Assembly (NCBI RefSeq): GCF_002077155.1
Contig: NZ_CP015027.1
Location: 434,001-498,000 of the forward strand
Reading direction: 5' to 3'
DNA from: Sporosarcina sp. P33
GTDB taxonomy: Bacteria > Bacillota > Bacilli > Bacillales_A > Planococcaceae
DNA length: 64,000 nucleotides
Below are positions 39,016 to 56,393 of this stretch, piece after piece; position 1 is the stretch's first letter, and the number at the start of each line of letters is the position of its first letter. The position numbers and the translations under genes were made by a program. The notes under the pieces were generated by a model. It did not search any database. It was given only the letters and a program-made list of their open reading frames with translations, and was not told the origin of the DNA.

Positions 39016-40284
39016 TTATAGGTTTTCGATTAATGCATCAGCGAATCCGGAAGTGCTAACTTCTGTCGCATTGTCCATTAGACGTGCGAAGTCGTATGTC
39101 ACTACTTTTGACGCGATAGTTTTCTCGATGGAAGCAGTGATTAGATCAGCTGCTTCGTTCCAGCCAAGGTGCTGAAGCATCATAACACCTGAAAGCAATA
39201 CGGATGAAGGGTTAACTTTATCCAATCCTGCATACTTCGGTGCTGTACCGTGAGTTGCTTCAAAGATCGCATGTCCAGACTCGTAGTTAATGTTCGCTCC
39301 CGGTGCAATTCCGATTCCGCCTACTTGCGCAGCAAGTGCGTCAGAAACGTAGTCACCGTTCAAGTTCATTGTAACTACTACATCGAACTCTTTTGGACGT
39401 GTCAGGATTTGTTGCAGGAAGATATCAGCAATTGCATCTTTAACGATGATTTTGCCTGCAGCTTCTGCATCAGATTGCGCTTTATTAGCAGCATCTGTTC
39501 CTTCAGCATCTTTAATACGGTCATATTCTTTCCATGTGAATACTTTGTCGCCGAATTCTTCTTCAGCCAACTCGTAAGCCCAGTTTGCGAATGCGCCTTC
39601 TGTGAACTTCATGATGTTTCCTTTGTGTACAATCGTCAAAGACTTACGGCCTTCACTGATTGTATAATTTAACGCTGAACGTACAATACGCTTTGTACCT
39701 TCTTCAGAAATCGGTTTAATACCAAGACCTGAAGTTTCAGGGAAACGAATATTTTTAACGCCTAACTCAGTTTGAAGGAAGTTAACTAATTTCTTTACTT
39801 CGTCAGTACCTTCCTGATACTCGATACCAGCATAGATATCTTCAGTGTTCTCACGGAAAATAACCATGTCACAATCCTCAGGACGTTTCACGGGTGATGG
39901 TACTCCTTCGAAATAACGAACCGGACGCAAGCACGTGTACAGATCTAGTTCCTGACGCAGTGCTACGTTCAATGAACGGAATCCTCCACCGATCGGCGTT
40001 GTAAGAGGTCCTTTAATCGCAATCAGATATTCTTTAATTGTTTCTAGAGTTTCTTTCGGAAGCCAATCACCAGTTTCGTTGAATGCTTTTTCTCCTGCAA
40101 GAACTTCCAGCCAATTAATTTTCTTTTTTCCTTCATAAGCTTTCTCAACTGCTGCTTCGATAACGCGTGAAGCTGCATGCCAAATATCCGGACCTGTTCC
40201 GTCACCTATAATGAAAGGAATTGTTGCGTGATCTGGGACGTTTAAAACACCGTTAGTTACTGTAATCTTTCCATCATTAGCCAT
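39016..40284 (-). CDS. icd: NADP-dependent isocitrate dehydrogenase
   Basis: A 422-residue TCA-cycle enzyme converting isocitrate to 2-oxoglutarate with NADPH. Visible are the substrate-binding [13 protein letters not shown] (phosphorylatable serine region), the tyrosine/lysine pair around the centre (Y in GIEYQEG, K in [12 protein letters not shown]), and [14 protein letters not shown] near the C-terminus. AGGAGG lies nine bases before the chosen ATG. It is the middle gene of citZ-icd-mdh. Confidence 0.97.
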
Positions 40285-40309
40285 TATTGATATCCTCCTG
40301 ATTTCAATA

Positions 40310-40338
40310 TCAGTGGGCCGGTATACGAGATACCGCCC
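40310..40338 (-). other. Intercistronic hairpin between citZ and icd
   Basis: GTGGGGCGGTAT pairs with ATACCGGCCCAC (one G-G mismatch) around a five-base loop. There is no T-run, so it is more likely a processing or stability element than a terminator. Confidence 0.5.
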
Positions 40339-40355
40339 CACGAATTTACTATTTT

Positions 40356-41471
40356 TTATCGTTCATTGATAGGGACATACTTTTGCATGCCTGGTCCTAC
40401 GTACTCTGCACGCGGACGGATCAAGCGGTTGTTTTCGTATTGCTCCAGGATATGTGCAATCCATCCTAAAAAACGAGAAACTGCAAAAATAGGCGTGAAA
40501 ATATCATGATCGATGTCTAATGAATGATATACCGAAGCGGAGTAGAAATCAACATTTGGAGGCAATTTCTTTTCTCCAGTGACAATTGCTTCGATTTTTT
40601 CAGACATATTGTACCACTTTTCTTCACCGCGAAGAGCAGTCAATCGTTTAGACATTTCACGCAAGTGCTTCGCACGCGGGTCACCCTGACGGTATACACG
40701 GTGTCCGAAGCCCATGATTTTTTCTTTGTTTGCAAGCTTTTCACGAATATAAGATTCTACTTTATCTTCATCGCCGATTTCCATCAGCATATTCATAACC
40801 GCTTCGTTTGCACCGCCGTGCAGTGGGCCTTTGAGTGCGCCAATTGCAGCAGTAACACCAGAATACATATCAGACAGAGTAGCTACACAAACGCGTGCAG
40901 TGAACGTAGATGCGTTCAGCTCGTGGTCTGCATGCAATACAAGTGCTTTGTTGAATGCTTCTTCAGCAATATCAGCAGGCTCTTCCCCAGAAAGCATGTA
41001 AAGGAAGTTTGCCGCATAGCTTAAACCTTTTTTAGGCGCCACAGGCTCTTGTCCTTTTCTGATACGTGCGAATGCTGTTACAACAGTTGCAACTTTCGCC
41101 TGAAGCTTAACTGCCTTTTTGTAGTTCTCTTCAGGTGACATATCTTCCGCTTTGTCGTCGTATAATCCTAGAAGTGAGATTGCTGTGCGAAGTGCTGCCA
41201 TTGGGTGCACTTTGTCGATTGGGTACGTTTTGAAGTGGTCGATAACCCCTTGTGGAATTTCTGCGTTATCTTCTAATTGCTGCTTCAATTCAGCAAGTTC
41301 TTCTGCATTTGGCAGACGCTTGTGCCACAGAAGATAGACAACCTCTTCAAAACTAGCATTTTCCGCCAAGTCATCGATGCCGTATCCTACGTATGTAAGA
41401 GTGTCATCGATAATGGAACTGATTTGTGATTGTGCTGCAACGATACCTTCCAATCCTTTTGTTGCTGTCAT
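40356..41471 (-). CDS. citZ: Citrate synthase
   Basis: A 371-residue type I-like citrate synthase condensing oxaloacetate with acetyl-CoA. The catalytic residues appear as H in [12 protein letters not shown] in [17 protein letters not shown] and D in [16 protein letters not shown] precedes the ATG. It heads citZ-icd-mdh. The promoter carries a CcpA-type cre right at the predicted start site, which fits catabolite repression of this operon in B. subtilis. Confidence 0.97.
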
Positions 41472-41553
41472 GATATTCTCTCCTTCTTCCCAGTTTGGCC
41501 ACCCTCTGAAGCGGAGTGCGGAGTGATGACCATCTGCTTAATTATATTTTTAT

Positions 41554-41567
41554 CTAAAACGCTTACA
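41554..41567 (-). promoter_or_regulatory. Candidate cre (CcpA site) at citZ
   Basis: The minus strand reads TGTAAGCGTTTTAG, which matches TGWAARCGYTWNCW at 12 of 14 positions and lies at about +1 to +14 of the predicted transcript. Confidence 0.65.
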
Positions 41568-41573
41568 AAGTCC

Positions 41574-41601
41574 ATTATAGCAACTTTTCCGATTTTGTGA
41601 A
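41574..41601 (-). promoter_or_regulatory. Promoter of citZ-icd-mdh
   Basis: TTCACA, 16 bases, TATAAT on the minus strand. Confidence 0.7.
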
Positions 41602-41654
41602 TGGTTAATAACTATTTTTGTTTATATTTACTAGAAAGGAATGGGCAAATCCAT

Positions 41655-42620
41655 ATGATATCCTTCGACTCAAAACGTTTGCAAACCTATTCACGCCAAT
41701 GGCTGCCTGCTATATTGATCGTTCTTTTCTTGGTGGTAATTCCGCCTGTCGGATTTGCGATTGTTTTTGCTTTCTTTACTGCTCCGCTCATGAATTCCCT
41801 GATTTCCCTTACAAAGCTTCCTGCTTTTTTAGCTGCTTTACTCATAATGGGAATGCTCGCCTCTTTAGTATACACCTTCTTGTTACTATCAATCAATGGA
41901 TTGATTTCTGTCATCTGGACAATGGAAGATCAATTGGGGCTGATCATTGAGATGATGGATAGCAGAGGGTGGAACTTGCATGCAGCAGCCGAGCAATTTA
42001 TCCAGTCGAGTCATGATGCAATGGATGGGATACTGAACTTTCTGCAAAAAATCTTTCAGTCGATTTTCAGCATATTTCTATTTATCATTGCTTATTTTTT
42101 CTCTCTGCGGGAAAGTGCAACAAACCGGTTTTGGTTTTTAGTGTACTTTCCTTCAGACTTCAGACAGTTCGCCAGACGCATTTTTGATAAGTCAAGCCGC
42201 CTGATGGGTCATTTCTTCTCGGTTCAGATCCGTCTTTTTTTCATTACCTTTGTGCTTATGACGATTGGATTCTGGTTACTGGATTTCGAGTCTTTTCTCA
42301 CAAAAGCTTTTTTGATTTCAATGGTCGACAGCATCCCATTTCTCGGAATCGGGCTGGTTTTTCTGCCGATGATTGCATTTTCCTTCTATATTGATGACAT
42401 GTATTCTGCTGTCGGTTTATTAGTTTTGTATATCGTTTTGCTTGTCACCAGACAGATGACTGAATCACTTTTATGGGCCCATACATTCAAACTGCGCACG
42501 GTACATTCTTTCATTATTACCGCTTGCGCCGTTTATTTGTTTGGCATCTACGGTATTTTATTTTTGCCGTTCTTCTTATTCATTGCCTTAAAAGTCAAAG
42601 AACATCCCACATTTACATGA
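41655..42620 (+). CDS. AI-2E family membrane protein, YtvI-like
   Basis: A protein of about 321 residues with seven to eight hydrophobic helices in the AI-2E/DUF20 arrangement: two helix pairs at the N-terminus, an amphipathic central region (about 90-150), and the C-terminal SMVDSIPFLGIG motif with following helices. In B. subtilis ytvI occupies the same place between citZ and fxsA/pyk and is called a sporulation membrane protein. Transport substrate unknown. The start is uncertain: the chosen ATG has only a distant AAAGGA, and a longer in-frame ATG lies at 41601. The 3' end overlaps the converging fxsA stop codon by eight bases. Confidence 0.78.
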   Translation: MISFDSKRLQTYSRQWLPAILIVLFLVVIPPVGFAIVFAFFTAPLMNSLISLTKLPAFLAALLIMGMLASLVYTFLLLSINGLISVIWTMEDQLGLIIEMMDSRGWNLHAAAEQFIQSSHDAMDGILNFLQKIFQSIFSIFLFIIAYFFSLRESATNRFWFLVYFPSDFRQFARRIFDKSSRLMGHFFSVQIRLFFITFVLMTIGFWLLDFESFLTKAFLISMVDSIPFLGIGLVFLPMIAFSFYIDDMYSAVGLLVLYIVLLVTRQMTESLLWAHTFKLRTVHSFIITACAVYLFGIYGILFLPFFLFIALKVKEHPTFT

Positions 42621-42996
42621 CACGAATTTGTCCGCTGCGGATTTTATTGTAGATCCATTTGACAATAAACGGATACAGTATTTTACGGGGTCCGCCAAAC
42701 AGCAGCAATAAACCAGCAATATCCGTAATAAATCCAGGCATTAATAATAATAACCCGCCCAGTAAAATACAGACGCTGTCTACGAGAGCTTTGCCCGGCG
42801 TCTCCCGGTTAGCCAGGCGGTACTGCAGATCTCGCCATGCACGCAGGCCTTGTTTTTTCGCAAGATATGCACCGCCGATTCCCGTTGCAATGATGATTGT
42901 AATTGTCGGAAGAATTCCGATGGTCTTTCCCGACAGCATCAATACAGCCAGTTCTGCAGTCGGGACAAGGATGAATAATGCTGCTAACCATTTCAT
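42613..42996 (-). CDS. fxsA: FxsA family membrane protein
   Basis: A 127-residue protein with three to four membrane helices and the FxsA features PTAELAVLM near the N-terminus and LLLMPGFITDIAGLLLL in the second half. E. coli FxsA reduces exclusion of phage T7 by the F factor; the role in Bacillales is unknown. GGAGG precedes the ATG and sits immediately after the T-run of the pyk terminator, so expression depends on read-through from pyk. Confidence 0.88.
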   Translation of the reverse strand: MKWLAALFILVPTAELAVLMLSGKTIGILPTITIIIATGIGGAYLAKKQGLRAWRDLQYRLANRETPGKALVDSVCILLGGLLLLMPGFITDIAGLLLLFGGPRKILYPFIVKWIYNKIRSGQIRVM

Positions 42997-43005
42997 ACAG
43001 TAACC

Positions 43006-43048
43006 TCCAAAAAAGACCGCCCTCTCAACGTGAGAATAGCGGTCTTTG
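43006..43048 (-). terminator. Terminator of pfkA-pyk
   Basis: AAAGACCGC pairs with GCGGTCTTT, with an inner CTCA/TGAG stem, followed by TTTTTT on the minus strand. Confidence 0.85.
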
Positions 43049-43053
43049 TGTTT

Positions 43054-44814
43054 TTACAATACTTTTGCGTGACCGTTGTAGATGACTCCGCTTGCTGCGT
43101 CCATTGTAATGTCACTGCCATTTTTAATAATTGATGTAATGTTCTCGGCACCTACGATTACAGGTATGCCTAAACTCAATCCCACCACTGCCGCATGGCT
43201 GGTCAATCCGCCAGTTTCTGTGATGATGCCCGCACATCGCTCAAGTGCCGCATACATGTCACGGTCAGTAGACTGGGTGACGATGATATCGCCTTCTGTC
43301 ACTTGCGTCAGCGCTTCCTGTGAGGACTTGATGACCTTCGCTTTACCGAATGCAACATTTTTGCCGATTCCCTGTCCGCGCCCGATCAAATCGCCGATAA
43401 CATGCAGCTTCATCAAGTTTGTCGTGCCCGCTTTACCAACTGGCACGCCCGCAGTGATGATCACTACATCACCGTGTGTGACGTATTGATGTTTTACACT
43501 TTCTTCAACTGATTCCTGAAGAATTCCATCGATGTCTAAAGCTTTTTTGCCGACGATAGGATAGACGCCCCAGACCAGTGTCAGCTTATTAGAGATCATT
43601 TCTGAACGTGTCACCGCAATGATCGGAACACCCGGACGGTATTTAGCGATCATAGTAGCTGTCTGTCCGCTTTCAGTTGGCGCCAAAATAGCCTTGACAT
43701 TCAAATTCAAAGCGGTATAAGCAGCGGCTTGTCCAATTGCCTCTGTCAAATTACCTTCTTTTTCTCTCGTTCTTCTGGAAACAACAGAGTGGAAGTCCAT
43801 TGATTCTTCGGTGGACAACGCAATTTTACACATAACGTTCACTGATTCCACCGGGTATAATCCGGCAGCTGTCTCGCCTGAAAGCATGACCGCGTCAGAA
43901 CCGTCTAAAATCGCATTGGCAACATCACTTGACTCCGCACGTGTCGGGCGCGGGTTTCTTTGCATAGAATCCAGCATCTGAGTCGCTGTAATAACAGGCT
44001 TACCGAATTGGTTACATTTGCGGATCATCGTTTTTTGCACCAGCGGAACTTCTTCTGCAGGAATTTCAACACCCAAGTCCCCGCGCGCAACCATCAGACC
44101 GTCAGATAATTGAAGGATTTCATCCAGATTATCGACACCTTCCTGGTTTTCAATCTTCGGCACGATATGGATGTGACCGCCATTATTCTTTTCGAGTAAT
44201 TCGCGGATTTGAATGACATCACTTGCACGGCGCACAAATGAAGCAGCGATAAAATCGACGCCCTGTTCAATACCGAACAGAATATCTTCTTTGTCCTTAT
44301 CCGTAATTCCCGGCAGCTGCACAGAAACATTCGGCACGTTGACGCCTTTATTGTCTTTTAAAGGGCCTGCGTTGATTACTTTTGTATGAATTAAGCCTTT
44401 TTCGTTATCTTTACCCGTCACTTCCAGTTCAATCAGGCCATCGTCAAGAAGCACGAATGAACCGCGTTCGACGTCATTGATTAGCTTCTCATACGTAACG
44501 GAAAAGACTTGGCTTGTCCCAAGAACTTCCTTCATCGAAATGTCCACTGCCTGTCCTCTCGTTAACTCGATCTGCCCGTCTTCCATTTTATGCGTCCGTA
44601 TTTCAGGACCCTTCGTGTCGAGCAGAATTCCGACCAACTTTCCTTTTTCAGCGGCCGCTTTGCGGATTCGTTCAATACGTACTCTGTGCTCTTCTTGGGT
44701 GCCGTGGGAGAAGTTCAGACGTGCAACGTTCATCCCCGCGTCAATCAGTTTCAGCAATGCCTCATACGATTCACTTGCCGGCCCGATTGTACACACTATT
44801 TTTGTCTTTCTCAC
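43054..44814 (-). CDS. pyk: Pyruvate kinase with C-terminal PEP-utiliser domain
   Basis: A 586-residue glycolytic enzyme making pyruvate and ATP from phosphoenolpyruvate. The barrel domain shows [12 protein letters not shown] at the N-terminus, [10 protein letters not shown] (about 238-247) and the Thr/Arg region TATQMLDSM. An allosteric domain (about 345-470) is followed by an extra phosphohistidine-like domain (about 480-586) with [18 protein letters not shown], as in other Bacillales enzymes. It follows pfkA by 38 bases, forming pfkA-pyk. Confidence 0.97.
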
Positions 44815-44852
44815 TACTTATCGCTCCTCTGCGTCATGTAGACTCTGACTAA

Positions 44853-45833
<981 letters not shown>

Positions 45834-45850
45834 TTACTGTTATGTACGAG

Positions 45851-45878
45851 CAAAAGATGCGGTCGCCCGCATCTTTTA
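45851..45878 (-). terminator. Terminator after accA
   Basis: AAAAGATGCGG pairs with CCGCATCTTTT around a four-base loop, starting in the accA stop codon; a TTTT tract follows. The space to pfkA is too short for a clear separate promoter, so partial read-through is likely. Confidence 0.7.
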
Positions 45879-46829
45879 TTCCGAAAATACACCGATTGCT
45901 CGGAATTTCTTATATCGGTTATCAATTAATTCTTCCGGTGACAACTTACATAATTCATTGAGTGATCTTCGCACCGTTTCACGCATCTCGTTTGCCTGCT
46001 TAGCGGCATCACGGTGAGCGCCGCCAAGAACTTCCGGGATCACTTCATCGATAATGTTCATTTCTTTTAAATCTGGCGCCGTAATTTTCATTGCTTCCGC
46101 TGCCTGCTTGGCAAGCGACGCGTCTTTCCACAAGATGGAAGCCGCCCCTTCCGGAGATATTACGGAGTATGTGGAGTTTTCAAGCATATGGATATGGTTA
46201 GCTACCCCAAGTGCCAATGCTCCCCCGCTTCCGCCTTCCCCAATCACAATGGAGATGACAGGCACTTTCAAGCCGGCCATTTCGACCAGATTGCGTGCAA
46301 TAGCTTCACTCTGTCCGCGTTGTTCGGCAGCTTTCCCCGGATATGCGCCTTTCGTATCGATGAAGCAGATAATCGGCCGGTTGAATTTCTCGGCCTGTTT
46401 CATCAGACGCAGTGCTTTTCGGTATCCTTCAGGATGCGGCATGCCAAAGTTTCTTTTGACATTTTCTTTTGTATCTTTCCCGCGCTGATGGCCAATAATG
46501 GTAATCGGAGTCTCTTCAAAAGAAGCAATACCGCCAATAATCGCTTCATCATCAGCAAAATTACGGTCTCCGTGAAATTCGATAAAATCTTCAAAGAGAC
46601 GGGAAATATAATCATTGGTTGTCGGTCTTGCAGGGTGCCGGGCGACTTGGACGCGATCCCATGGCTCCATGCTTTCATAGATATCTTTTTCTAAATTTGC
46701 CAATCTGCTTTTCAGATTCACAATCTCTGAGGAAAGATCGACATCATTCATGGCTGTATATTCTTCCAGCTCATTAATTTTTTCACGCAGCTTTACAATA
46801 GGTTCTTCAAAAGCGAGTGTTTTACTCAT
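45876..46829 (-). CDS. accA: Acetyl-CoA carboxylase carboxyltransferase alpha subunit
   Basis: A 317-residue subunit that, with AccD, transfers the carboxyl group from biotin-BCCP to acetyl-CoA to make malonyl-CoA. The N-terminal coiled-coil region (about 10-55) and crotonase-like fold with [15 protein letters not shown] (about 199-213) are present. Its ATG overlaps the accD stop codon by four bases (ATGA), so the two subunits are translationally coupled. Confidence 0.97.
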
Positions 46830-47698
46830 ACAAGTTCCGTCTCCTTTCCTGCGTGAAGTTTCAGGATTTTATACATAACACCTGGCATGTCATTCCGATG
46901 AACAATTGCGTCTAATTGACCATTATTCAGCAAAAATTCAGCTGTCTGGAAATCATCCGGCAGCTTTTCACGCACAGTTTGCTCAATGACACGGCGTCCC
47001 GCAAAACCGATCAGCGCTTTTGGTTCAGCCAGGTTAATGTCTCCTACCGATGCAAAGCTGGCTGATACACCGCCGGTCGTCGGATACGTCATGATGGAAA
47101 TATACAATAACCCTTGGCTCGCGTGCCGTTCAAGTGCTACACTCACCTTCGCCATCTGCATCAAGCTGATGACACCTTCCTGCATCCGCGCACCGCCGCT
47201 TGCTGAAAATATCAGCATCGGAATCCCTAATTCTGTTGCTTTTTCTACTGCTCTCGTAATCTTTTCACCAACGACTGAACCCATGGAGCCCATTCTGAAA
47301 TGCGCATCCATAACGGCAACGGCTGCTTTCTGGCCCTGAATTTTCCCGACACCTGTCAGCACCGCTTCATTCAGCCCTGTTGCTTCCGCATCAGCCTCTA
47401 CCTTTTCTGTATAGGAAGGGAAATTTAACGGGTTCTCTGTTTTCAGATGATTGTCCATCGATTCGAAACTGCCCTCATCAAACAGATGATCGATCCGTTC
47501 CTGTGCAGTCATTTTGTAATGGTGCTGACAAGAAGGACAGACTTTGCCGTTCTTCAATAATTCTTTCGTCAGGATGACATGCTTGCACTCCGGACATTTT
47601 GTCATAATTCCTTCGGGCACATCCGCCTTACTTTTTGCAGACGGCATTGTATGTTGGTCTTCTTTTGGTTTCTTTTTAAATAATTCTCTGATACTCAT
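46826..47698 (-). CDS. accD: Acetyl-CoA carboxylase carboxyltransferase beta subunit
   Basis: A 290-residue partner of AccA. The N-terminal four-cysteine zinc ribbon (CPEC at about 35-38, CPSC at about 54-57) is followed by the carboxyltransferase fold with [11 protein letters not shown] and [20 protein letters not shown] precedes the ATG, which overlaps the stop codon of the upstream FCD regulator gene by four bases. The order regulator-accD-accA forms a tight operon. Confidence 0.97.
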
Positions 47699-48357
47699 TC
47701 CGTTTCCCTTCTTTCTCCCTCAACTTGGTTCATCCATTGTTCATAACAAGCCAAGGCTTGCTCTGTATTACCAGCCATCATTTCACCCAGCAATTCACGG
47801 ACAGTCATTATTTCATCTGGATCAGTAATGGCCACATCGAAAGAAACTCCGCTGTATTGCTTCAATAAAAACCAAATTTTCAGTGAGAGCCGATTTTCAG
47901 TTGCGACAATCGTTTCGCGGACCATATCTTCACGCAAAAACATCGCTTCTTCTTCGTTTAATTTACTTTGCATACCTCTCCAAACAGGCAACATGCGCAG
48001 TTCTTCATTTTTGGTGACTGCTGTAATCGCCGCACGCTCGTGAATCATCCGGGTTTCAACTACATCCTGGATGGATCTTGCCTGCTGCATGATAAATGCC
48101 GAGAGAACTTCCACTAACTGATGTTTTTTAAAATCGGATAAAAACGTGCCTTCGCCTCTTCTCGTTTCAATCAGACCGAGCAGTTCCATACTGCGCAACG
48201 CTTCACGGACTGCCGTTCTGCTCACTTGAAGTTTTTCCGCCAAATGACGTTCAGATGGCAGCTTATCGCCATATTCGATTTTTTGCTCGCTGATCAGTGA
48301 TTGCAGCTCTCCGATAATATCCAAAAAACGCTTGGATGATGATTGTGAATTTTGCAT
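47695..48357 (-). CDS. FadR/GntR-family regulator with FCD domain
   Basis: A 220-residue regulator. The GntR winged helix (about 10-75) contains [24 protein letters not shown] in two parts, here [11 protein letters not shown] and [10 protein letters not shown]; the all-helical FCD domain (about 90-215) binds an organic acid or acyl ligand in relatives. It overlaps accD by four bases and so is cotranscribed with the malonyl-CoA-forming genes, which suggests fatty-acid or carboxylic-acid sensing. A GTGGTCTGACCAC palindrome at the start of its transcript is a likely autoregulatory site. In B. subtilis a malic enzyme gene occupies this place. AAAGGAG precedes the ATG. The ligand is unknown. Confidence 0.85.
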
Positions 48358-48389
48358 GAGGAGAACTCCTTTTTCGTTCCATCAACAGA

Positions 48390-48402
48390 GTGGTCTGACC
48401 AC
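48390..48402. promoter_or_regulatory. Palindromic operator candidate of the FCD regulator-accDA operon
   Basis: GTGGTCTGACCAC is a perfect 13-base palindrome of the TGGTnnnACCA type bound by FadR-subfamily GntR regulators, at about +2 to +14 of the predicted transcript. Confidence 0.7.
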
Positions 48403-48411
48403 CTGCATACT

Positions 48412-48440
48412 AGCATACAAAAAAGAGAGCACTACGTAAA
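48412..48440 (-). promoter_or_regulatory. Promoter of the FCD regulator-accD-accA operon
   Basis: TTTACG, 17 bases, TATGCT on the minus strand. Confidence 0.55.
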
Positions 48441-48524
48441 GCAATATCTTGAAAATACAAGTGTTTATTTTTCGTCATTTTTCCTCCCGACTGAACGCTC
48501 GCTTGTCGAAAAGTGGAGTTTGGT

Positions 48525-48552
48525 TTCTAATGGCGCGCTATGCGCCATCAGA
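48525..48552 (-). terminator. Hairpin after dnaE
   Basis: ATGGCGC pairs with GCGCCAT around a five-base loop, flanked by TTCT/AGAA that can extend the stem. It lies about 40 bases past the dnaE stop codon. There is no T-run, so termination is uncertain. Confidence 0.4.
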
Positions 48553-48591
48553 AGCCATAGAATTTTATACAATAATGTAGTATTTTATTTT

Positions 48592-51500
48592 TTATTCTTC
48601 TATACGGACTGCCGGCTGCAGCTGATCAACGATAAGCTGTACCGATTGATTGCGGTAATCGATGCTTCCCGAAACTCGAACAAATGCCTGTTCTTGTAAA
48701 TGGACGCTGGTTTGCGCAAATTGTTTCGGAAAGACCGTACAGGATATTTCTTCTGTTTCGTCCTGCAATGTCAGGAATGCCATTGCTTCCCCTTTTTTTG
48801 TTCGGATTCTTTTAATAGACAGTATCATGCCCATGCACTGAACTTTTGTGCCTTTCCGTAAAGTAAACAGCGAGGAAATTGGCGGGATCCGATCTGCTGC
48901 CTTGCGCTTAAGCTGCTCAATAGGATGTTCCGACAGATAAAATCCTAACATATCATGTTCAAAACTGAGCCTGGTCATCTGATCCATCTCTCCGCCCGGT
49001 GTATATTTCGGCTGCGAATTAAAATGAAACTGATCACTTAATGCATCATCACCTATAAAAAGCGCATGGGAATGAGCGGCATCTATGGATGCGAGAAGGA
49101 CAGAACGCTTTTCACCAAAGTCATCCAGCGCACCTGCTTTAATTAGCGGGATTATCGATTTCTCAGTGAAATGATCTGCCCCAAGCGCGACGGCCATGTC
49201 AAACATGGATTGCCAGCCGCCCTTTTCACGTGAATCTGCCAGATGCCGGTAAAACGCAAGAGTGATTCCTTTGATCGCGCCCAGCCCGAGACGGATTGCA
49301 TCGCCTTCCACTGTATGTGAATAACGGCTTTTCGTCACAGAAGGCGGCAGAATGCGTATCCCTCTCCCTTTTACTTCACGGATCACTTCCATCATCTTTT
49401 CCTTGCTGCCTGTCAGAGATGATAAATAGGCCGCATAAAAGTACGTAGGTTCGTTCGCTTTAAAATATGCGAGACGGTAGGAAATCAGAGAATACGCTAC
49501 TGCGTGGCTCTTCGGAAATCCATAATCAGCAAATTTGACAATTAAGTTATACACATTATTCGCTTTGATGCGGTCGAATCCTTTTTTTATGGCTCCGGCA
49601 ATAAAGTGCTGCCGTTCTTTCTCCAGCACTTGCTGATTCTTCTTGCTGATCGCCCGCCGGAGAAGATCTGCTTCCGCCAGTGTAAAGCCTGAAATTTCTA
49701 CGGCAATTTTCATGATCTGCTCCTGATAGATGATGATGCCGTACGTTTCCGCCAAAATCGGCTCCAGTTCAGGTATGTCATAGCGGATCGGCTCCTGTCC
49801 GTTTTTACGGCGGCTGTACAGCGGAATGAATTCCATAGGACCCGGTCTGTACAAAGCATTGACCGAGTAGACATCCTTAAAGTTATCAGGCCGGATAGTT
49901 TTCAGCGCACGCCGCATTCCCGGTGATTCAAACTGGAATATGCCGGTCGTGTCGCCTGCCTTGAATATTTCATAAGTCAACGCATCGTCCAGCGGAATAC
50001 GTTCAAAATCAATGACTTGCTTCTTATTGTATTGAATCATGGAACGGATTCTGTCGAGCAGCGTTAAATTGCGCAGTCCTAAAAAGTCCATTTTCAATAA
50101 TCCGGCTTCTTCCACGTCTTTCATAGCCCATTGCGTCAAGAACACTTCTTCGGTACCTATCTGCAGCGGCACATAATGAACGAGCGGTTTTGCTGCAAGC
50201 ACGACGCCCGCTGCGTGTGTGGAAGCGTTTCTCGGTAAATCCTCCAGACGTTCCGCTGCCATCTGCCAGACAGCTCTGCGCGGATCCACGTCAATCCAGT
50301 CACGGAGTTTTTTCGATTGAATGATATTCTCTTTGAATGAACGGCTGCTGTTTAATTCGTTTGACATGAAGCGGACTTCTTCCGGGGTGAAATCAAGCAC
50401 TCTGGCGACGTTGCGCGCAACGGCTTTCGTTGACAGCGTACCGAAAGTAATAATCTGCGCGGCATATTGTTTGCCGTATGTATCCGCCACATAATTTACG
50501 ACTTCTGTTCTGCGGTGATCCGCGAAATCGATATCGATATCGGGCATCGTCACCCGTTCGGGATTCAGGAACCGTTCAAACAGCAATCCGTAGACAATCG
50601 GATCGACTTCCGTAATGCCAAGCGCATATGCAACGAGTGATCCGGCAGAAGACCCCCGTCCGGGACCGACTAAAATGCGCTCGGATTTTGCATAGCGCAC
50701 ATAATCTTCTACTATTAAAAAGTAATCAGTGAAGCCCATCTGACTGATAATTGATAATTCGTACCGCAGACGTTCTTCGTATGCTGCAGGCAATACGTGA
50801 AAGCGCTGCTGCAGACCCAATCGGCAATGCTCTTTTAGCAAGGAGTCAGATGTCTGGCCGTCTTTCACGGGAAATGCCGGCAGCAAAAAGTCTTCCTTCT
50901 GAATGCTTACATTGCACGCATTCATCATAGCTTCTGTAGTTTTCAGCCATTCAGGACGGTCAGAAAACCAATTCATGAACTCTTCCCGCTCAGGCAAATA
51001 AGCCTGGCGATAGCGATTGGGAGGTTTTTGCGGGTCGTTCAGTTTATATCCTTTACGAATGGCCGTGGCCACTTCATACGCCTGAAAATCTTCCGGATGA
51101 AGAAAACGTGTTTCATGGCAAGCAGCAATAGGCAGCCCGCTTTCCTCACTCAGTCTGATAAGATGTTCTTCCTCCGCATGGGCGCTTCCTGCTGGCCGGC
51201 TGATTCCGATAAATGCAGACGAATCCGAGCGCCCTTCAGCGATTTGCTGCAGCACTTCCACGTTTCGTGCATTTGCCCAAGATGCATCGGTCATCGCGCA
51301 GATGATAAAGCACCCTTCCCTGTAGGCCTGCAGCCAAGTAAGCGGCAGCGTCTCATCTTCACGCGTCGAAATCGCACTGCTCATTTTCATTAAATTAGAA
51401 AAGCCTGTCTGGTTTCGCGCATACACATACAGAAGCACTTCTGTATCATCTGCATTCAGCATGACAGACAGGCCGATCACAGGGCGTATGCCGTATTTCG

Positions 51501-51660
51501 TGGCCATTTTACTGAAAGACCGGACGCCATATAATTTACTGTTGACGATTGCGGCAGAAGCAGCCCCTCTTTTCTGCAAAAGAGGAGCCAGTTCATCTAA
51601 CTTTACAATCCCTCGCAATAGATCTGCGCCGGTTATAATTTGCGGATACATCAGGTTCAT
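48592..51660 (-). CDS. dnaE: DNA polymerase III alpha subunit, DnaE type
   Basis: A 1022-residue C-family polymerase; in Bacillales DnaE extends RNA primers before PolC takes over. The catalytic aspartates are in PDIDIDFADHRR (about residue 372), and the fingers and helix-hairpin-helix regions and a C-terminal OB fold (about 930-1015) are present. The N-terminal PHP domain has lost its metal ligands: where B. subtilis DnaE has HLQVH and DDH motifs this protein has YPQII (Y5, I9) and NSK (40-42), and a later DVH is ETR. GAGGGA precedes the ATG. It follows nrnA by 19 bases. No PHP activity is expected. Confidence 0.95.
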   Translation of the reverse strand: MNLMYPQIITGADLLRGIVKLDELAPLLQKRGAASAAIVNSKLYGVRSFSKMATKYGIRPVIGLSVMLNADDTEVLLYVYARNQTGFSNLMKMSSAISTREDETLPLTWLQAYREGCFIICAMTDASWANARNVEVLQQIAEGRSDSSAFIGISRPAGSAHAEEEHLIRLSEESGLPIAACHETRFLHPEDFQAYEVATAIRKGYKLNDPQKPPNRYRQAYLPEREEFMNWFSDRPEWLKTTEAMMNACNVSIQKEDFLLPAFPVKDGQTSDSLLKEHCRLGLQQRFHVLPAAYEERLRYELSIISQMGFTDYFLIVEDYVRYAKSERILVGPGRGSSAGSLVAYALGITEVDPIVYGLLFERFLNPERVTMPDIDIDFADHRRTEVVNYVADTYGKQYAAQIITFGTLSTKAVARNVARVLDFTPEEVRFMSNELNSSRSFKENIIQSKKLRDWIDVDPRRAVWQMAAERLEDLPRNASTHAAGVVLAAKPLVHYVPLQIGTEEVFLTQWAMKDVEEAGLLKMDFLGLRNLTLLDRIRSMIQYNKKQVIDFERIPLDDALTYEIFKAGDTTGIFQFESPGMRRALKTIRPDNFKDVYSVNALYRPGPMEFIPLYSRRKNGQEPIRYDIPELEPILAETYGIIIYQEQIMKIAVEISGFTLAEADLLRRAISKKNQQVLEKERQHFIAGAIKKGFDRIKANNVYNLIVKFADYGFPKSHAVAYSLISYRLAYFKANEPTYFYAAYLSSLTGSKEKMMEVIREVKGRGIRILPPSVTKSRYSHTVEGDAIRLGLGAIKGITLAFYRHLADSREKGGWQSMFDMAVALGADHFTEKSIIPLIKAGALDDFGEKRSVLLASIDAAHSHALFIGDDALSDQFHFNSQPKYTPGGEMDQMTRLSFEHDMLGFYLSEHPIEQLKRKAADRIPPISSLFTLRKGTKVQCMGMILSIKRIRTKKGEAMAFLTLQDETEEISCTVFPKQFAQTSVHLQEQAFVRVSGSIDYRNQSVQLIVDQLQPAVRIEE

Positions 51661-51679
51661 TTCAATCCCTCAGCTCTGC

Positions 51680-52621
51680 TTAATAGTTTCTGCAAATTTC
51701 CTGCAGTTTGACAATAATTTCGTCCACTTCTGTCCATGAATATGCGGAAGCACCTGAAGCAAGAGGGTGGCCGCCGCCGTTGTGCTGCATGGCCAATGTA
51801 TTGATGACAGGGCCTTTCGAGCGCAGACGGACACGGATTTGATCATCTTCTTCGATAAAGATGATCCATGCACAGATTCCTTTCACATCCCCAAGCGATC
51901 CAACCAGCTGAGAGGTTTCGGAAACTGTCACATCAAACTCTTTCAGGATATCTTTCGTTAATTTAATATAGGCCGCACCGTGTTCATCTATTGTAAAGTT
52001 CTGATAGATATACCCTTGCAGATGCAGAATTTTTCGGTCGACTTCATACATTCCCGCAAATAATTTTGTACGGTCAAACGGTTGTTTGATTAATGAACTC
52101 GCAACTTCGAATGTTTTCTCTGTCGTACTTTGGAACATAAACCGGCCTGTATCACCTACAATTCCTGCAAATAAGAAACGGGCAGCTTCAGGAGACATTT
52201 CCCAGCCGTATACTGCCTGCCCTTCTTCAAAGATGGTATAGATCATTTCAGAACAGGAACTCGCATCTGTATTCACCCAGCGTTCATCGCCATACGGGTC
52301 TTCATTTGGGTGATGATCAATTTTCAATAAAAATGCGCCGCGGTCATAAAAAGGCCCGTCGATCCGATCTGTGTTTGCTGTATCAGTGACAATGACCAGC
52401 GCCCCTTCGTAATCGGCTTCCGTCACAGTGTCAGGCTCCCCCAAGTAGCCGAGCAGTTCATCATGTGTGCCTGCTGCCAGCACTTGTTTTGCGGGATAGT
52501 TTTTCTGAATTAATGCCTTCAGTCCCATCTGTGAACCGTATGCATCCGGATCCGGTCTGACATGCCGGTGAATAATAATTTTTTCATATTGTTCAATTGT
52601 GTCAATGATTTGTCGTTTCAT
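51680..52621 (-). CDS. nrnA: Bifunctional oligoribonuclease and pAp phosphatase NrnA
   Basis: A 313-residue DHH/DHHA1 phosphoesterase that degrades short RNA oligonucleotides and hydrolyses pAp to AMP. The DHH domain has HRHVRPDPDAYGS (about 19-31), the central DHH motif appears as IDHHPNED, and DHHA1 carries the GGGHPLASGAS motif. The chosen ATG is behind GGGGGG; an in-frame ATG 12 codons earlier includes it. It lies just ahead of dnaE on the same strand, as in B. subtilis, and is divergent from ytpI. Confidence 0.95.
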   Translation of the reverse strand: MKRQIIDTIEQYEKIIIHRHVRPDPDAYGSQMGLKALIQKNYPAKQVLAAGTHDELLGYLGEPDTVTEADYEGALVIVTDTANTDRIDGPFYDRGAFLLKIDHHPNEDPYGDERWVNTDASSCSEMIYTIFEEGQAVYGWEMSPEAARFLFAGIVGDTGRFMFQSTTEKTFEVASSLIKQPFDRTKLFAGMYEVDRKILHLQGYIYQNFTIDEHGAAYIKLTKDILKEFDVTVSETSQLVGSLGDVKGICAWIIFIEEDDQIRVRLRSKGPVINTLAMQHNGGGHPLASGASAYSWTEVDEIIVKLQEICRNY

Positions 52622-52738
52622 GTGTTTCCCCCCAAGTTTCTGTCCAAGTATTCGCATTTCCGATAAAAAGCCGATACAATGTAGTATGAACCGCAGCGCG
52701 CAGGCGCCAGGTTATTTTTATGTAATGGAGGCTTTTTG

Positions 52739-53068
52739 ATGGAGACGGTTAATTTTCTTTTTGTTTTTGGTATCGTCGCTTCCGGCGTTTTTTATTTTGT
52801 TTTTAAAACACGCCAATTCCGGACAAGCCATATGTTTCCCATCCGTAAAAAGATGTATGCAAGCATGGCAGGAACTTCACTTGGTGCCTTATTGATTTTT
52901 TTCGGCATCAATCAATTGCTGCTCTTTGACGGCGTCCTGACATATATCGTGTCGGCTATTTTTATTTTATTCGGCGGCTATGTGGCGATCTTTAATTTTA
53001 ACGCCCAGAAACACTATAAGCAGTTCGTAGAAGAAGAACGTGCATTAAACAAAACTGACGTCAATTGA
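52739..53068 (+). CDS. ytpI: YtpI family membrane protein
   Basis: A 109-residue protein with three membrane helices (about 5-20, 42-62 and 68-88) and a charged C-terminal tail, matching the YtpI family that lies beside nrnA/ytoI in Bacillus. Function unknown. The ATG with ATGGAGG upstream is chosen over a TTG one codon earlier. Its 3' end runs into the hairpin shared with ytoI. Confidence 0.82.
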   Translation: METVNFLFVFGIVASGVFYFVFKTRQFRTSHMFPIRKKMYASMAGTSLGALLIFFGINQLLLFDGVLTYIVSAIFILFGGYVAIFNFNAQKHYKQFVEEERALNKTDVN

Positions 53069-53086
53069 TGTCAGTTTTTTATTTTT
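53054..53086. terminator. Bidirectional terminator of ytpI and ytoI
   Basis: ACTGAC/GTCAGT arms around a GTCAATTGAT core (itself able to pair) are followed by TTTTTT on the plus strand and flanked by AAAA on the other side. The left arm is within the ytpI coding end. Confidence 0.7.
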
Positions 53087-54386
53087 CAAAAAGCTGGAAC
53101 GTCCCCATTGCTTTGGCCACAATGCCGTCATTGGATGTCAGCTCGATTTCCAGTTTGATGAAGCGGCGGCTTAAGTGAATGATTTTCGGTTCTACGGTCA
53201 CCGTTGCACCCAGCTGCACTTGTTTAATGAAATAAATCGTTACGTTCTCGGGAACACTTTCTCCGCGTTTTTGGAGTTTGATCGCGCGGCTGCCCGCTTC
53301 TGTTAAGATTGTCAGCATCGCTCCATAGGATAGTGAGCCAAATTGATTGGTCATTTGCGGAACAACGGAAAACTCGATTTTATCCGGTGAATTAGTAATT
53401 GCTTTCATTTGATTTTTGACGATGTCATCGATTGTTTCACCTTGCTGCGGCTGACGCTGGGTCATTTGCAGTGCTTTTAAAACGTCCTGACGGCTGATAA
53501 TTCCTTCAAGAATACCCGCATCATCGACAACAGGCATCAAATCGATACCTTCCCAAATCATACTGTGCCCCGCAGAAGCCACACTCATTTTACCGTTCAC
53601 CGTAATCGGATGGGTTGTCATGACTTTCCCGATAATATTGACATCAGGCTTACTGACCACGTCACGGGATGTAATAATTCCTACAAGCGTTCCGTCTGAT
53701 TTTACGACGGGATAGGCTGAGTGCGATGTTTGGTGATTCACTTCAAAGAACTGATCCACCGAATCCTCTGGCGATAATGTCACTGTGCGGGCAATCGGCG
53801 TGAGGATATCTTCCACCAATAAAATTTCTTTCTCGATCAGCTGATCATAAATAGCCCGGTTCAGCATCGTTGCCACGGTAAACGTGTCATAACTTGTGGA
53901 GATGACCGGCAAATTCATTTCATCCGCCAGCTGCTTCACTTCATCAGTCGCATCAAAGCCGCCTGTAACCAGGACAGCTGCCCCGGCCTTAATAGCGATT
54001 TCATGCGCTTTCAGCCGATTTCCTACAATCAATAAACTGCCTGCGTCGATATATCGGATCATATCGTCCAGCTGCATGGCGCCCACTACAAATTTCGTTA
54101 ATGTTTTATGTAAGCCGTCGCGGCCGCCCAGCACGACACCATCGACAATATTGATCACTTCAGCAAATGTCAGGCGCTCAATGTTTTCTTTTTTCTTTTT
54201 TTCAATCCGGATCGTTCCTACCCGTTCGATAGTATTGACAAGTTTCTGATTTTCCGCCTCTTTTATTGCGCGGTATGCAGTGCCGTCACTGACTTCCAAT
54301 GCTTTCGCAACTTGACGTACAGAGATTTTTTCTCCAACTGCTAAGCTTTCAATATAACGCAAAATCTGTTCGTGTTTAGTTGACAT
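53079..54386 (-). CDS. ytoI: HTH-DRTGG-CBS-hotdog regulator YtoI
   Basis: A 435-residue protein with an N-terminal winged helix (about 1-60), a DRTGG domain (about 70-175), a tandem CBS pair (about 190-305; MTTHPITVNGKMSVA marks the second) and a C-terminal hot-dog thioesterase-like domain (about 330-432). CBS pairs bind adenosine nucleotides and DRTGG domains are associated with them, so a nucleotide-controlled DNA-binding protein is likely. The hot-dog domain may bind an acyl-CoA. The family is YtoI of B. subtilis; its targets are not known. It faces ytpI and is separated from ytkL by a terminator. Confidence 0.88.
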   Translation of the reverse strand: MSTKHEQILRYIESLAVGEKISVRQVAKALEVSDGTAYRAIKEAENQKLVNTIERVGTIRIEKKKKENIERLTFAEVINIVDGVVLGGRDGLHKTLTKFVVGAMQLDDMIRYIDAGSLLIVGNRLKAHEIAIKAGAAVLVTGGFDATDEVKQLADEMNLPVISTSYDTFTVATMLNRAIYDQLIEKEILLVEDILTPIARTVTLSPEDSVDQFFEVNHQTSHSAYPVVKSDGTLVGIITSRDVVSKPDVNIIGKVMTTHPITVNGKMSVASAGHSMIWEGIDLMPVVDDAGILEGIISRQDVLKALQMTQRQPQQGETIDDIVKNQMKAITNSPDKIEFSVVPQMTNQFGSLSYGAMLTILTEAGSRAIKLQKRGESVPENVTIYFIKQVQLGATVTVEPKIIHLSRRFIKLEIELTSNDGIVAKAMGTFQLFEK

Positions 54387-54452
54387 GATTTCACCTTTTC
54401 CTTAACCTTCTGTTAGGTTTCTGCTTTTTGCTAATCATACCATAATTTCATT

Positions 54453-54494
54453 AAAAAAACGGTCCAAGACGATAACTATGCGTCTTGAACCGTA
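54453..54494 (-). terminator. Terminator of ytkL
   Basis: ACGGTTCAAGACG pairs with CGTCTTGGACCGT around an eight-base loop, then TTTTTTT on the minus strand. Confidence 0.85.
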
Positions 54495-54512
54495 ATTATT
54501 TGTTTCCGTCTT

Positions 54513-55190
54513 TTACAGCTCGATTGATTCACCAGGCTCCATAATTTTCACTTCGTGATTCGTCACGAGCGACTTGAAGTTCTGCGGATCGAGCTCAATC
54601 GGAGGGAACGTATTAAAGTGAACAGGGACAGTCAGCTTCGGGTTCAGAAGTTCCACTGCTTTTGCCGCATCTTCAGGCCCCATTGTGAAATTGTCCCCGA
54701 TTGGAAGGAATGCCACGTCTATTCCGGCTTCTCCGTATAATTTCATATCACTGAACAGCGATGTATCTCCGGCATGATAGATGACTTTGTCTTCAATGGT
54801 CAGCAGCAGTCCTGCCGGCATGCCGGTATAAATAATTTCATTATCTTCTGTAGTATACGATGAACTATGGAAGGCTTGTGTATATTTCACTGTTCCAAAA
54901 TCAAATTCATTTGCCCCGCCGATATTCATACCGTGTGTTTTTACCCCCTGGAATCCAAGGTATACGGCTAATTCATTGGGCGCTACGACCAGGATATCTT
55001 CTCTTTTTGCAATGTCCATCGTATCGCCGACATGGTCATTATGGCCATGCGTAAGCAAGATGACGTCAGGTTTTTCATCAGCTGCCTTCAGATCGGTCAG
55101 TTTATTGCCCGTAATAAACGGATCAATTAATATAGTTTTCCCTTTTGTTACAATTTTTACGACCGAATGGCCATGGTACGAGATTTTCAA
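54513..55190 (-). CDS. ytkL: Metal-dependent hydrolase, UPF0173 (YtkL)
   Basis: A 225-residue metallo-beta-lactamase-fold protein of the UPF0173 family. The metal motif [12 protein letters not shown] (HxHxDH, about 52-63) and later histidines in YHAGDTSLF and VPVHFNTF are intact. The physiological substrate is unknown. The start is a TTG with AGGAGTG eight bases upstream, giving MKISYHGHS, the usual N-terminus; the longer frame runs through the promoter and into the divergent gene. Confidence 0.9.
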
Positions 55191-55298
55191 AACGATCACA
55201 CTCCTATAGTTAATAACTCTCTCTATACCTATACCTTCTCCATTGCAGCATAAAACCCTCTTTTTTGTTATACTAACCAAAACAGAGGAGGCTATATT

Positions 55299-56393
55299 TT
55301 GGCGAACATTCAAAAAGTACAGGATTTCTTAGTTGAACATTCTATCGACGCAGCACTTATTACGAATCCCGATAATATATTTTATCTGACAGATTTCCGC
55401 AGTGATCCGCACGAAAGATTGCTTGGCGTAGTGGTTTTCAAAGAAAAGGACCCGTTTATTATTTGTCCCGCGATGGAAGTCGCTGATGTAAAAGCAATTG
55501 GCTGGAATTATGATATTATCGGCTATAAAGACACAGACAACGCCTTTGCATTTTTAGAACAGGCGATTACTGAAAGAATTTCTTCGTTCTTATTGCTGGC
55601 AATTGAAAAACAGCATCTGACAGTAGATCGTTTTGAAATTTTACAGTCGCGCTTCCCTTCCTTGCAATTTGCGAACTTGGATGAGAAACTCGCAAGCTGC
55701 AGATTAGTTAAAAATGAAATTGAATTGGAACATCTGCGTAAAGCGGCAGAATTGGCGGACTATGCCATCGAAGTCGGCTGCAATGAAATCGCAGAAGGCA
55801 AAACGGAGCTGGAAATCGTGCAGGCGGTAGAGACCGCAGTGAAACAAAAAGGCGCAGAGAAAATGTCATTTGACACAATTATTGTTTCAGGCACAAAAAC
55901 TGCCTCGCCCCACGGCATTCCGGGTGAACGAAAAATAGAGAAAGGCGATTTCATTTTATTCGATCTTGGCGTTGTATATAAAGGATATTGTTCGGATATA
56001 ACGCGGACAGTGTCATTCGGCGAACCGTCTGAAGAAAAGCGTAAGATCTATGAGACAGTCAAAAAAGCCCAGCAGGCGGCAATTGACGTGGTGCGTCCCG
56101 GCACACTGGCAAAAGAGGTTGATCTTGCGGCTCGTTCTGTCATTGAAGAAGCAGGTTACGGTGAGCTCTTCCCGCACCGAATCGGACACGGTCTCGGTAT
56201 TTCCGTTCATGAATATCCTTCATTAACAGGTACAAATGATATGCCTCTTGAAAAAGGTATGGTGTTCACGATTGAACCGGGCATTTATGACCCGTCAATT
56301 ACCGGTGTGCGTATCGAAGATGATTTGTATGTGACGGAAGACGGAGTCGAAGTGCTGACAAAGTTCCCTAAAGATCTGAAAGTTATCGGATAA
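55299..56393 (+). CDS. Xaa-Pro peptidase family protein (M24B)
   Basis: A 364-residue metallopeptidase of the aminopeptidase P/prolidase family, cleaving peptides next to proline. The creatinase-like N-domain (about 1-125) precedes a pita-bread catalytic domain with metal ligands in [18 protein letters not shown] (split here as [15 protein letters not shown]), [18 protein letters not shown] and EDD. The start is a TTG with GGAGG at normal spacing. A TG-T-TATACT extended -10 lies about 30 bases upstream. It is divergent from ytkL. Confidence 0.9.

Follow-up and report, generated by a model that had tools for sequence, protein, structure and literature searches.

A FadR-type palindrome conserved at the head of the regulator-accD-accA operon in Sporosarcina and other Bacilli, the probable operator of the regulator encoded behind it

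The regulator-accD-accA operon and its promoter

The window, by which we mean the whole 64-kb stretch of Sporosarcina sp. P33 DNA analysed here, comes from a genome of 3.24 Mb in a single contig. Behind dnaE, the minus strand carries in order a promoter (TTTACG-N17-TATGCT), the palindrome GTGGTCAGACCAC, a ribosome-binding site and the genes for a FadR-subfamily GntR regulator, AccD and AccA. In window coordinates, the features are as follows:

48592 to 51660, minus strand: dnaE, the neighbour upstream of the operon
48435 to 48440, minus strand: -35 element TTTACG, found in 66 of the 67 operator-aligned named loci
48412 to 48417, minus strand: -10 element TATGCT, 17 nt from the -35 element
48390 to 48402: putative operator palindrome GTGGTCTGACCAC, present in all 68 named loci
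48389 to 48403: family consensus AGTGGTCWGACCACT, spanning the palindrome and its flanks
48366 to 48372, minus strand: ribosome-binding sequence AAAGGAG of the regulator gene
47695 to 48357, minus strand: FadR-subfamily GntR regulator, 220 aa (PF00392, E 6e-17), with a predicted FCD-like C-terminal domain lacking the metal-site histidines
46826 to 47698, minus strand: accD, carboxyltransferase beta subunit of acetyl-CoA carboxylase (TIGR00515, 396.7 bits, cut-off 317.45)
45876 to 46829, minus strand: accA, carboxyltransferase alpha subunit (TIGR00513, 507.4 bits, cut-off 319.3)
44853 to 45821, minus strand: pfkA (6-phosphofructokinase), an open reading frame named by reading its sequence, 54 nt behind accA

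The identities of accD and accA come from NCBIfam equivalogs. The coordinates bear out the four-base overlaps described in the initial annotation, both between the regulator gene and accD and between accD and accA; pfkA may be co-transcribed with accA. Only 8 of 12 promoter positions agree with the sigma-A consensus, and the promoter is missing from the list of a promoter scanner run at threshold 9, because its score lies below that threshold. An inverted repeat (TGGTTTCTAATGGCGC / GCGCCATCAGAAGCCA) at 48521 to 48557, behind dnaE, is possibly the dnaE terminator.

The TGGTnnnACCA palindrome reported downstream of this promoter is indeed there, perfect apart from its unpaired central base, and the 64 kb contain no match to TGGTNNNACCA other than GTGGTCTGACCAC. 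A single sequence proves little in this case, since such matches often arise by chance: at least one appeared in 47 of 100 shuffles of the window, and the genome holds 18 of them versus 13 for the reversed control. Taken alone, the palindrome is not beyond chance; it is its conservation that lifts it far above chance and rules out a chance origin. The search of the genome for the same 13-mer, proposed together with the palindrome, returned one exact copy. When the same genome was scanned with AGTGGTCWGACCACT, the operon site had one mismatch, no second site had fewer than two, and the next best was a single place with two. At up to three mismatches there were 30 places versus 82 for the reversed control, and a wider regulon in this genome was rejected on these counts.

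Conservation in the family of the window

A protein scan yielded 70 named loci, of which 68 are orthologues with accD adjoining the regulator gene; the other two (L069 and L070), together with L157, which has no accD, were excluded as non-orthologues, and many of the loci L071 to L130 belong to the same species as L001 to L068. The 68 loci come from Sporosarcina, Planococcus, Psychrobacillus, Filibacter, Planomicrobium and others, with regulator identities of 46 to 89%, and the nearest named relatives of the window regulator are all Sporosarcina (79 to 89% identical). One of the 68 loci (L017) stands in a record titled Arthrobacter beigongshangensis, with a Sporosarcina-like locus, a regulator 60% identical and the same gene order; the record is probably misnamed or mixed. 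dnaE lies upstream in 67 of the 68 loci and the contig ends there in the remaining one.

The operator was present in all 68. A perfect TGGT-N3-ACCA occurs within 200 nt of the start in 63 and TGGCCAGACCA in four, while the last one (L038) has TTGGTCTGACCACT 286 nt upstream. The absence of the palindrome from species with the same operon, named beforehand as evidence against the proposal, was thus not seen in any of these loci. We aligned 67 loci on the operator core, and since they had been picked for that core, only the flanks and the promoter are free of this bias. The positions on either side of the searched core are G and C in 32 of 32 loci (the 67 after dereplication), extending the palindrome to AGTGGTCWGACCACT. 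A 17-nt spacer was picked in 67 of 67 by a promoter finder that grants a half-point bonus for this length, and in all but one of the 67 the TGGT core begins 10 to 14 nt past the -10 element.

At the level of whole genomes, all 151 members of the family have the regulator; so do 260 of the 261 genomes in the order, made up here of this same family. The exact 13-mer is present in 120 of the 151, as a single copy in 119 and twice in one; the reversed-pattern control matched in one of 151. Second copies occur in G392, G432 and G458, and the one in G432 sits within a coding frame. Of the 31 genomes without it, 12 were opened, and every one had an operon version with one or two mismatches. Among 73 of the 120 family genomes with a site, it lies 23 to 60 nt upstream of the regulator match in 67 and 168 to 334 nt upstream in six.

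Co-occurrence of site and regulator across the class

We extended the comparison to 250 genomes of the class (Bacilli, as judged from the named relatives), 22 of them from the window's family, calling the regulator at a profile E value of 1e-30 or less. The regulator was found in 112 genomes and the exact 13-mer in 91: both in 87, the regulator only in 25, the site only in four and neither in 134 (Fisher p 1e-38). Outside the family, the corresponding counts were 68, 22, 4 and 134, and the reversed control matched in 17 of the 250. The FadR-type operator that the initial annotation had placed at the start of the regulator-accD-accA transcript is therefore tied to the regulator throughout the class. 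All 10 loci opened among the 22 non-family genomes with the regulator and no exact site had a site within two mismatches of AGTGGTCNGACCACT. Over the 112 loci and 14 specified positions, 62 sites match at all positions, 43 miss one and seven miss two. Considering that site and regulator are kept together across many families, usually with one site per genome, we read the palindrome as the site of this regulator. Two genomes of one other family have a second site between the regulator gene and accD (one exact, one with one mismatch).

Sites without the regulator and at acpP

A single one of the 261 genomes in the order (G021) has no regulator. Its accD is immediately preceded by a TTTACG promoter and AGTGGTCCGACCACT (L191, G021:C1, around 217576), and hence the promoter serves accD there. 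The site can outlive its regulator, as this genome shows.

In one genus (g9), an operator-like palindrome is found just after a -10-like element of acpP in seven of eight genomes (L202:1525-1537, L204, L205, L206, L209, L212 and L214); 23 further genomes were examined, and all of them lack it. In G151, the genome of L202, it is exactly AGTGGTCAGACCACT; this assembly has 8% contamination, and six other genomes of the genus agree on the palindrome. The acpP site likely represents an expansion of the regulon to the acyl carrier protein, and it points to a role of the regulator in lipid synthesis.

The regulator and its sensor domain

The N-terminal part of the regulator is a GntR winged helix-turn-helix (PF00392, 61.5 bits, cut-off 27, E 6e-17). 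Its C-terminal part has no credible Pfam match, and none to PF07729 (FCD) at E of 0.1 or less, although three orthologues from other families (L140, L144 and L146) score as FCD with E values of 1e-24 to 1e-26. A predicted model (mean pLDDT 79.8) aligned over residues 90 to 220 with the FCD domain of TM0439 (3sxm) at a Z score of 13.5, an rmsd of 2.9, 127 aligned residues and 16% identity; helical bundles can reach a Z of 13 through shape alone, but orthologues with the same gene order carry Pfam FCD. The C-terminal domain is modelled as an all-helical FCD-like fold.

FCD domains bind a metal through an Asp-His-His-His motif. At the aligned positions the window protein has D-V-V-W, and none of the three histidines is kept in any of the 82 family proteins, so that the description of the protein as an FCD regulator in the initial annotation agrees with the predicted fold and fails at the level of the Pfam match and the metal site. 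All four residues, D-H-H-H, are kept in 10 of 26 sampled non-family orthologues. These proteins group with one that has lost the site in a midpoint-rooted tree, a rooting that does not fix the number of losses. The signal in the window's family is thus not a classical metal-dependent FCD ligand. A helix of 13 residues is nearly invariant in this family, which indicates that the domain is still under selection there. Shortened regulators of 141 to 184 aa are found in four sampled genomes (L151, L153, L154 and L155), with a fifth at L190 (150 aa). The first four have kept the operator with zero to two mismatches, just before the regulator gene in three and approximately 1.3 kb upstream in one.

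Known regulators of fatty acid and malonyl-CoA synthesis

Long-chain acyl-CoA releases the FadR protein of Escherichia coli from its DNA, where the operator core is TGGTCNGACCA. This core is nearly identical to the one described here, and lipid metabolism is the target in both cases. However, the window protein scores 35.2 bits against the E. coli-type FadR model (TIGR02812, cut-off 249.2), matching only with its N-terminal part (residues 24 to 121), and we therefore rejected its identification as FadR proper; a further difference is the essentially single site per genome here.

FadR-subfamily regulators use TGGT-N3-ACCA operators, according to a survey of the group (PMC4494728), and GTGGTCTGACCAC fits their common feature of TKGT/ACMA boxes with 3 nt between GT and AC. 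The GntR winged helix and the position of the regulator beside its targets are likewise shared with the survey set, but here the target is acetyl-CoA carboxyltransferase, a subject on which the survey's main text is silent (accD is not named in it), and the sensor lacks the metal-site histidines. Both the DNA-binding part and the operator belong to the FadR-subfamily kind described there. For E. coli FadR, direct control of acc operons has been suggested, and the protein is described as a positive, dual regulator (PMC11602165). The same source describes AccR of Shewanella oneidensis, also dedicated to an acetyl-CoA carboxylase gene, but a LysR-family activator acting on the gene of a multidomain enzyme, and FasR of Corynebacterium glutamicum, which also acts at the promoters of some acc genes but belongs to the TetR family and has a large regulon. 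In Bacillus, FapR controls fatty acid synthesis genes in bacteria related to those studied here; it differs in responding to malonyl-CoA, and accDA is stated to lie outside its regulon (PMC5437119).

According to a 2017 paper, B. subtilis had no identified mechanism for the control of malonyl-CoA synthesis (PMC5437119); regulators specific to acetyl-CoA carboxylase genes were called elusive in 2024 (PMC11602165), and a review cites control of accDA by Spo0A in Bacillus (PMC4525379). We found no description of this regulator in the open PMC literature; it is apparently undescribed.

A probable autorepressor and its alternatives

It is highly probable, from the sequence comparisons, that the palindrome serves as operator for the regulator whose gene follows it, and that this protein is a dedicated FadR-subfamily GntR autorepressor of the carboxyltransferase operon. 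A dimer would bind AGTGGTCWGACCACT, with the TGGT core just past the probable transcription start; it would thereby extend over the beginning of the transcribed region and repress the regulator gene together with accD and accA. In this way the carboxyltransferase half of acetyl-CoA carboxylase, and through it the malonyl-CoA supply, would have a set-point control of its own. Repression and autoregulation are the simplest reading because of the nearly constant placement of the core in the family, 10 to 14 nt behind the -10 element. A protein bound just downstream of a -10 element usually blocks transcription, and we consider it unlikely on this ground that the regulator activates the operon or has a dual effect on it, as the behavior suggested for E. 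coli FadR at acc operons might lead one to expect. We infer binding, repression over activation, autoregulation, the physiological role and any assignment of the ancestral gene order from the genome comparisons.

An inverted repeat at this place could also function in the mRNA, as a 5'-terminal hairpin affecting stability or translation, rather than as a DNA operator. The predicted 5' leader does contain the repeat and folds into this hairpin. A stem should keep its pairing, however, and changes in the six core pairs over the 112 loci broke it 26 times and kept it three times. Moreover, the letters are nearly invariant, with A at the centre in 70 of the 112 loci and T in 41, and the similar motif in the one genus lies just after the -10 element of acpP. 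These observations make the hairpin very improbable, and a search of Rfam over window positions 40000 to 56000 returned nothing. Binding of the site by a different FadR-type protein, with the neighbouring regulator acting elsewhere, is also very unlikely. The genome does encode several GntR paralogues (eight matches to the regulator in all at E of 0.001 or less), GntR relatives share half-site preferences, and the genome without the regulator retains the site; against this, the 13-mer occurs in only four of the 138 class genomes without the regulator versus 87 of the 112 with it, set beside the 17 control matches.

A different question is whether the autorepressor responds to a ligand, either as a metal-dependent FCD sensor of organic acids or as a sensor of malonyl-CoA or acyl-CoA, a reading that would be compatible with autorepression. 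The FCD-like predicted fold, the metal site kept in the 10 non-family orthologues, the FCD scores of the three orthologues tested and the selection on the nearly invariant helix all speak for a ligand. On the other hand, none of the 82 family proteins keeps any of the histidines, and versions of 141 to 184 aa have lost much of the domain while the operator persists. A ligand for the regulator is therefore possible, and ligand-controlled feedback is a tentative reading that we think somewhat doubtful. The feedback loop on malonyl-CoA synthesis foreseen in the initial annotation is a fair inference if taken as autoregulation of the carboxyltransferase operon; its small-molecule ligand finds no support in a domain that has lost its metal site in this family and much of its length in some orthologues.

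How acetyl-CoA carboxylase genes are controlled is an open question, which a single sequence-defined operator makes directly testable in culturable species. The operator also offers a natural switch for malonyl-CoA engineering.

Malic enzyme and gene order in other families

Outside the window's family, the site is usually far from the regulator gene. In a sample of 48 of the 68 non-family class genomes having both, it lies 1280 to 1536 nt upstream in 46 and approximately 50 nt upstream in two. dnaE was upstream of the site in all 20 class loci opened, and in 19 of these, all non-family, the order is dnaE, operator and a malic-enzyme-like gene of 409 to 429 codons, with both malic-enzyme domains in the three tested; the twentieth (L190) has no malic enzyme. 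Most of the other families examined thus have the full order dnaE, promoter/operator, malic enzyme, regulator, accD and accA; in the window's family, the operon lacks malic enzyme. The operator position in the malic-enzyme loci is less certain, because the spacers picked by the promoter finder varied in length (16 nt in 16 of 20) and the distance to the operator ranged from 5 to 27.

The arrangement of malic enzyme, regulator, accD and accA would link the malonyl-CoA supply to a likely NADPH source. A broader reading, on which we are evenly divided, is that many families share an ancient dedicated controller of malonyl-CoA supply (and of malic enzyme in most families other than the window's) with about one operator per genome, in which the site and the DNA-binding domain have been kept while the sensor has lost its metal site or been cut down. 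In the window's family, the protein would then be a ligand-free negative autoregulator fixing the amount of carboxyltransferase, or would respond to a signal that is not a metal-bound organic acid, for example a protein contact through the 13-residue helix. If true, this would illustrate how a regulator can lose its sensor and still keep its target site.

Two other peculiarities of gene order were observed. Nine loci (L140 to L145, L148, L150 and L152) have a conserved frame of approximately 70 codons starting MWTVI between the regulator gene and accD; as read from the gap sequences, these are of families whose regulator keeps the metal site. In G454 (L147), approximately 780 nt without a clear gene separate the operator from the regulator, where other families have malic enzyme or nothing.
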